Below, in pieces: positions 5,086 through 31,643 of a stretch of DNA of 41,765 nt. Every line of letters begins with the position of its first letter. The stretch's first letter is position 1. The DNA is from a bacterium. Lineage in GTDB: Bacteria > Bacteroidota > Ignavibacteria > Kapaibacteriales > Kapaibacteriaceae. The stretch lies in assembly GCA_024711065.1 (NCBI GenBank), contig JANJTN010000083.1, forward strand, positions 1 to 41,765. The letters run 5' to 3'. A model generated the notes under the pieces. That model searched no databases and had not been told where the DNA came from. It was given only the letters and a program-made list of their open reading frames with translations. Made by a program: the position numbers and the translations under genes.

Positions 5086-5160
5086 CGGGGTGTAGCGTAG
5101 CCCGGTTAGCGCGTCTGCTTTGGGAGCAGAAGGTCGCAGGTTCGAATCCTGCCACCCCGA
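5086..5160 (+). tRNA. tRNA-Pro (anticodon TGG)
   Basis: The acceptor arms CGGGGTG (5086-5092) and CACCCCG (5153-5159) pair fully. The anticodon stem TCTGC/GCAGA encloses the loop TTTGGGA, giving anticodon TGG, which reads CCA and, with wobble, other proline codons. The T arm contains the GGTTCGAATCC motif. The length to the discriminator base A is 75 nt. CCA is not encoded (the sequence continues CAA). The gene is directly followed by the heptamer repeat array. Confidence 0.95.
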
Positions 5161-5163
5161 CAA

Positions 5164-5312
5164 CGGAAAGCGGAAAGCGGAAAACGGAAAGCGAGTAGTA
5201 CCGCTTTCCGTTTTCCGTTTTCCGTTTTCCGCTTTCCGCTTTCAGCTTTCCGCTTTCCGTTTTCCGCTTTCTGCTTTCCGCTTTCCGTTTTCCGCTTTCC
5301 GCTTTCCGCTTT
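5164..5312. repeat. heptamer tandem array with an inverted 5' arm
   Basis: Bases 5201-5312 are sixteen consecutive 7 bp units, mostly CCGCTTT or CCGTTTT (single variants CAGCTTT and CTGCTTT). Bases 5164-5191 are four units of the reverse complement (CGGAAAG or CGGAAAA). The two blocks can fold into a roughly 30 bp hairpin with a short loop near 5193-5201, tolerating G-T pairs. The array fills the whole gap between the convergent tRNA-Pro and lipoprotein genes, and its last unit is shared with the lipoprotein's TAA. It may serve as a bidirectional terminator or transcript-end stabiliser; this is inference. Confidence 0.92.
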
Positions 5313-5946
5313 ACATCGCCGCGAGCTTGTCTAGTTTCATCGACGAGGCGACGCTCTTGACAAAGTTGGTCGACTCCTGCTTGGTTGCGCGGATGGAAAC
5401 CAGGAAGCGTCCTCCAACGCCGTAGGTGACCGTGGCGTCCTTGTTCACCTTGTCGAATTCTTCATAGCCGTTCACGAACTCGTTGTCGGTATTGAACGTG
5501 GCTGACATCGACTGGTCGTTATCCACCTTCATCTGTACGGCGAACATCGCTGCGGCTCCCATGTAGCCCATGGCTGAAGCGTTGTAATCGGTGATCGACA
5601 CATTCACACGTGAGCCATCGGGCTTGGTGAACTCCTTCTTGACCACGGTCATGCTCATACCCGGCGTGTTCACGGTCTCATACGATGGTTCCTTGGCTTC
5701 GTAGCTGCTGATCGAAACCGGCAAGTAGCCTTTCAACGCTTCAGGATCCATGGCCAGGGTGTCGCCTTTGGCAACGCGTTCCTGACGCCGCGCTTCCATC
5801 TTGTCCATTGTCTTGGCGGCGTCATCTGCAGAGGCCGCGATCGACTGTACATTCTTCATCGCTTCAGCGGCTTCGTTCAGCTCGCCACCGCAGGCAACCA
5901 GCATCAAACTGGCCGCGAACGATCCGATCATAACGATGTGTTTCAT
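5311..5946 (-). CDS. small predicted lipoprotein, function unknown
   Basis: A 211-residue protein starting at the ATG at 5946. [19 protein letters not shown] is a lipoprotein signal with the lipid-attachment Cys at 19, followed by GGE. After it comes a helical, charged stretch (about 25-60: [32 protein letters not shown], possibly a coiled coil), then a globular alpha/beta domain with the segments [16 protein letters not shown] and [10 protein letters not shown] do not recognise a catalytic motif or a named family. The upstream extension (MYHDVRSRT) would mask the lipobox and is rejected. The stop codon is embedded in the heptamer repeat. It is divergent from the large thioredoxin/NHL gene at 6141. 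Confidence 0.8.
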
Positions 5947-31551: not shown

Positions 31552-31556
31552 GAGAG

Positions 31557-31636
31557 TGCTTGAGTGCTTGAGTGCTTGAGCGCTTGAGCGCTTGAGGGCT
31601 TGAGCGCTTGAGTGCTTGAACGCTTGAACGTTTGAA
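31557..31636. repeat. octamer tandem array downstream of acyl-CoA dehydrogenase
   Basis: Ten consecutive 8 bp units of the form [T/C/G]GCTTGA[G/A] (the tenth is CGTTTGAA) begin 5 bp after the TGA at 31549-31551, and an eleventh decayed unit follows. Units drift from TGCTTGAG at the left to CGCTTGAA at the right, as expected for tandem expansion. The array lies between convergent genes and is followed by a hairpin. Confidence 0.92.
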
Positions 31637-31643
31637 GGTTCTG

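Follow-up and report, generated by a model that had tools for sequence, protein, structure and literature searches.

The gap between the convergent genes for tRNA-Pro and a lipoprotein is filled by a satellite of seven-base units, and we consider it probable that this satellite grew by slippage and took the place of a bidirectional terminator; folded as a hairpin, it may continue to define where transcripts end. The satellite origin of the array is well supported, whereas its role at transcript ends is inferred. A total of 20 units were observed in the 149 bp gap, which is made almost wholly of array, in two mutually inverted blocks of four and sixteen units (Table 1). The array starts three bases past the final base of tRNA-Pro, whose CCA is not encoded. 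Whole CGGAAAR units of the left arm span 5164-5191, with a further CG extending to 5193, while two degenerate units, CAGCTTT (5243) and CTGCTTT (5271), occur among the sixteen of the right array. The right array reads CGGAAAR on the minus strand, which is sense for the lipoprotein gene. Tandem Repeats Finder scored the left block at 53 and the right block at 175. In the rest of the window (the whole 41.8 kb stretch of DNA analysed), CCGYTTT-type units were observed only six times, always singly, which excludes a chance origin of the array. Such head-to-tail tandem units beyond chance are a mark of heptameric simple-sequence repeats (the LSSR/STRR class).

Table 1. Positions of the repeat blocks and neighbouring genes within the window.
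Feature	Position	Strand	Remark
tRNA-Pro (TGG)	5086..5160	+	end at 5160/5161; 3' trailer enters array
Left arm, four CGGAAAR heptamers plus CG	5164..5193	+	exact reverse complement of 5279-5308
Junction AGTAGTA, seven bases, separating the two blocks	5194..5200	.	
Right array, sixteen CCGYTTT units (plus-strand reading), CGGAAAR on the minus strand	5201..5312	-	
Distal right array, hairpin-stem half, exact 30-bp complement of left arm	5279..5308	+	
Lipoprotein gene, 211 aa	5311..5946	-	convergent with tRNA-Pro; TAA stop overlaps last repeat unit
GAGYGCTT octamer array, about 10 units, same general class	31554..31640	+	

These observations bear out the preliminary description of a heptamer array with an inverted arm filling a convergent gap directly after tRNA-Pro, and its remark that the last unit supplies the lipoprotein stop codon agrees with the overlap of the TAA with the final repeat. 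Its statement that the unit is not coding in any constant frame was imprecise. The CGGAAAR heptamer contains a stop codon in none of the six frames, so a 101-aa open reading frame (5120-5425, plus strand) passes uninterrupted through the whole array, which in that frame reads as a 7-residue repeat; nothing suggests that the array is translated. The 211-aa lipoprotein had no match in Pfam. Its homologues in relatives align up to residue 207-211 in nearly all cases, and the array therefore starts just past an unaltered C-terminus.

The orthologous gap shows what the array displaced. The convergent tRNA-Pro/lipoprotein order was found in six relatives within the family, and in all six the gap measures 48-78 bp, lacks an array and contains a compact hairpin (-25 to -38 kcal/mol) that can be read from either side. 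With the focal gap nearly all array, the array occupies the place of a terminator-type hairpin, and by this comparison of gap sequences it has replaced that hairpin at this locus. Three other array-bearing gaps had no consistent hairpin or terminator in the orthologous gaps of relatives, and we therefore rejected a general replacement of terminators by arrays and limit the replacement to the tRNA-Pro/lipoprotein locus. Genome-wide support is weaker than at this locus. With arrays masked, which shortens the sequence examined, the remaining hairpins of array-bearing convergent gaps were weaker than those of other convergent gaps (median -3.5 versus -18.8 kcal/mol), and they became about equal when the array was counted (median -21.0 kcal/mol). 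The fraction of convergent gaps with a hairpin outside an array was 0.33 for those with arrays versus 0.60, which is not significant (p 0.10). In a complete genome of the same genus (G004), several copies of a segment of about 220 bp holding GTTTTTATC repeats were observed (L213 11286-12866), lying about 600 bp downstream of the lipoprotein orthologue.

The folding potential of the array is strong on both strands. Its longest exact inverted repeat is 30 bp, pairing 5164-5193 with 5279-5308, and the two RNA strands have predicted folding energies of -64.6 and -69.9 kcal/mol compared with -35 and -42 in shuffled sequences (z -8.6 and -7.8), in agreement with the hairpin of about 30 bp proposed earlier for a transcript from either strand. 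Among close inverted pairs of the CGGAAAR heptamer, in the focal genome and other phyla, 10 of 11 have the purine arm first (p 0.012), an order in which, on both strands, the 5' arm is rich in purines and the 3' arm contains U, as in terminators. The array thus resembles bidirectional intrinsic terminators in its site between convergent genes, in its G+C-rich stem past the gene 3' end on both strands, and in its purine-first arm. It differs from them in a stem of about 30 bp made of repeats, a large loop, and the lack of a U-run. No run of five or more T was found after the stem on either strand, the longest being TTT or TT, and the array hairpin is therefore not a textbook intrinsic terminator. 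A known RNA family was also rejected, since only the tRNA passed the Rfam gathering score and the hairpin gave sub-threshold, microRNA-like matches that are meaningless.

The array is one of many in this genome, a draft of 2.56 Mb in 216 contigs whose genes we called with a dicodon caller. A sample of 1.07 Mb (42% of the genome, sampled by contig) was searched for arrays with periods of 5-12 bp and yielded 158, of which 101 have period 7, 28 period 8, 21 period 6 and 8 period 12, with none of period 5, 9, 10 or 11. By proportion, the 150 arrays of 6-8 bp units correspond to about 360 in the whole genome. The heptamer arrays fall into 20 families, the largest being AATGGGG (25), ACGCTAG (13), AGCAGCG (9), AGGGGCG (8) and AAAGCGG (8). 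Further arrays of the focal word, for which the preliminary description had suggested a genome search, are indeed present: at least five CGGAAAR/CCGYTTT arrays occur in the draft, two of them at contig ends. Its suggestion of a structural or variable-number element also fits, as the array is a satellite of a genome-wide class with inverted arms able to form a very stable hairpin.

Such a draft raises the question of an assembly artefact or chimaeric join, for which the enrichment of arrays at contig ends (22 of the 158 arrays lie no more than 120 bp from an end, e.g. L012 1-41 and L013 6619-6648, versus about 4 expected) would be a reason. We regard this as the least probable explanation: the array is bridged within a 41.8 kb contig, the tRNA-Pro/lipoprotein order is conserved in the six relatives, and similar arrays recur many times in the genome. 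The exact unit count of the array may nevertheless be wrong, and the excess at contig ends makes it likely that arrays are longer and more numerous than the assembly shows.

Although a fraction of 0.92 of the sampled sequence is coding, 111 of the 150 arrays with 6-8 bp periods lie outside called genes, matching the multiple, mostly intergenic loci per genome that mark the LSSR/STRR class. The intergenic arrays cluster at gene ends, with 64 of 111 flanking 3' ends within 15 nt of the array as against 28 of 87 flanking 5' ends. We counted 26 arrays in convergent gaps and 11 in divergent ones, despite there being twice as many of the latter. This distribution is also what a purely neutral satellite would give, with slippage arrays piling up at gene 3' ends because DNA there has no codons or promoters, and with the hairpin a functionless by-product. 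The existence of many families, the many arrays without an inverted partner, and the absence of a regulatory role found for comparable repeats (PMC4692102) all suit such an explanation. We rate it as possible, though below an array retained as a 3'-end structure. A process blind to structure would not be expected to place the array at a terminator's position, to put the purine arm first in 10 of 11 inverted pairs, or to favour one polarity at stop codons. For the last of these, among CGGAAAR arrays from many phyla with a stop codon within 25 nt, the purine-rich strand is sense in 23 of 32 and antisense in 9 (p 0.02), a count that is approximate because genes were called as long open reading frames. 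Each of the three effects is modest.

Several other arrays in the focal genome also lie at gene ends. The GAGYGCTT array of the window begins just past the stop codon of the upstream gene, and is followed by an ordinary terminator-like hairpin. Inverted TAGCGTC/GACGCTA arrays occupy entire convergent gaps on two contigs (C22, L175 2457-2591; C56, L229 2126-2234), where the TAG stops of both genes are repeat letters, stops on either strand being supplied by the CTAG palindrome. The family found most often, (GGGGAAT)n with 25 arrays in the sample (e.g. L163 4876-4929 and L242 5017-5088), has a G-quadruplex pattern as in the Nostoc and Xanthomonas repeats.

The presence of the arrays is lineage-specific. 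Two heptamers were searched for in relatives, and neither CCGYTTT nor CCCCATT arrays were found in any of 39, five congeners included; in 400 kb of a complete congener we observed 8 arrays, none of period 7. In one family relative (G017), an AATAGCG array of 23 units lies just past a stop codon (L304 1338-1499), and the gene is the same one that bears an ACGCTAG array in the focal genome. The presence of an unrelated array at the orthologous stop codon indicates that arrays were born there more than once, independently.

The word itself is widespread. A scan of one genome per species for at least 3.5 perfect CGGAAAR units returned at least 120 stretches, compared with about 0.02 expected at equal base frequencies. 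Among the matches listed were Bacteroidales, Verrucomicrobia, Planctomycetota, Spirochaetes, Ignavibacterium and Acidobacteria, and also several proteobacterial groups, Streptomyces and a Neisseria; period 7 dominates at these loci too. A record with the title Neisseria gonorrhoeae DSM 9188 has a 27-unit CYGTTTT array beside a 984-nt open reading frame (L078 1666-1854), possibly a variable-number locus. With the same heptamer this widespread and its class already described (PMC4679880, PMC4692102), absolute rarity of the array is not supported.

Simple slippage of random seeds does not explain why the same few heptamers recur at unrelated loci. Common words as seeds were rejected, since the main families rank only 630 and 854 among 1170 heptamer classes, and neither stop codons nor 4-base palindromes were clearly enriched as a selected property over all 1170. 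An alternative is that arrays were dispersed by sequence-specific copying or transfer (horizontal transfer, ectopic conversion or templated addition) and did not grow locally from seeds. The concentration of 25 of the 101 heptamer arrays in one word and 13 in another, neither of them common in the genome, together with CGGAAAR arrays in many phyla, would fit such dispersal. We think it unlikely, however, because array flanks do not resemble one another (of 160 masked flanks, 2 pairs were similar, a result that also led us to reject a mobile element with conserved flanks), an associated gene was not found, and sporadic recurrence may stem from a sequence preference of slippage.

The array belongs to a known class of heptameric simple-sequence repeats. 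Cyanobacterial STRR heptanucleotides form several families of tandem arrays in the intergenic DNA of one genome. The focal genome shares that general description but has other words and belongs to another phylum. Three STRR heptamer families in Calothrix are cited in PMC4692102. As cited in PMC4679880, Mrazek et al. (2007) found heptamers to be the commonest long unit class in most genomes, scattered phylogenetically, and ascribed them to polymerase slippage. The arrays described here share the heptamer units and sporadic scatter, and differ in their 20 heptamer families per genome, in two tested families without arrays in congeners, and in the replacement of an orthologous terminator.

Rehm et al. 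(2015) described G-rich heptamers, GGGAATC in Xanthomonas and GGGGA(C/T)T in Nostoc, that are intergenic, lie on the sense strand within 50 bp of stop codons and in some cases overlap the stop, shun divergent gaps, include tandemly inverted copies, and have no regulatory role found (PMC4692102). Period, intergenic location, proximity to or overlap with stops, avoidance of divergent gaps and inverted copies are all shared with the focal genome, in which the family with most arrays, AATGGGG, has the quadruplex pattern. CGGAAAR, in contrast, contains GG only and not the G-tract of at least three per unit (GGGNATC type) needed for quadruplexes, and here the inverted pair gives a long hairpin.

MacGregor (2015) reported TAACTGA heptamers in marine Beggiatoaceae, Cyanobacteria and some Bacteroidetes, mostly ahead of start codons in the main genome, in a word that contains stop codons (PMC4679880). 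One word at many loci and in distant phyla, with relatives lacking the array at the same gene pair, is common to both systems. The focal arrays differ in lying mostly after stop codons, at 3' ends and not just upstream of starts, and in a different word, which has no stop codon. By analogy with TAACTGA (PMC4679880), identical words repeated near gene ends might serve as an array of binding sites for a post-transcriptional regulator, either protein or RNA. We consider this very improbable given the 3' location and the complete absence of the words from congeners, which makes a conserved regulon unlikely. New here are a different word that lacks a G-tract and, at the site of the array, an ancestral hairpin that is documented. 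A text search of the literature for the repeat strings gave only unrelated oligonucleotides among the matches listed, and we found no publication about repeats of this kind in the lineage.

Our favoured reading is that the lineage accumulated several hundred arrays of 6-8 bp units, mainly just past stop codons, and that the focal array would be one of these, grown in whole-unit steps by replication slippage inside the convergent gap. It would have taken the place of the short bidirectional terminator hairpin kept by relatives. Because the two blocks are inverted, and the purine-rich arm precedes its partner on each strand, a hairpin of roughly 30 bp would form in both transcripts. This hairpin may still serve tRNA-Pro and the lipoprotein mRNA as a barrier or as a signal for the 3' end; in that case selection would tolerate or favour the inverted arrangement.

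The locus is a clean case of a satellite sitting on the site of an ancestral terminator, and it therefore poses directly the question of whether slippage repeats can replace regulatory RNA structure. The analysis also documents a burst of heptamer arrays peculiar to one species, and the word CGGAAAR is shared by phyla that are unrelated. We doubt the broader proposition that slippage-born inverted heptamer arrays took over as bidirectional transcription terminators in this lineage, but if true, and taken with the recurrence of the word across phyla, it would point to sequence-preferring amplification that repeatedly builds hairpin 3' ends from satellites. The findings bear on the dominance of seven-base units among long bacterial repeats and on the repeated appearance of certain words.
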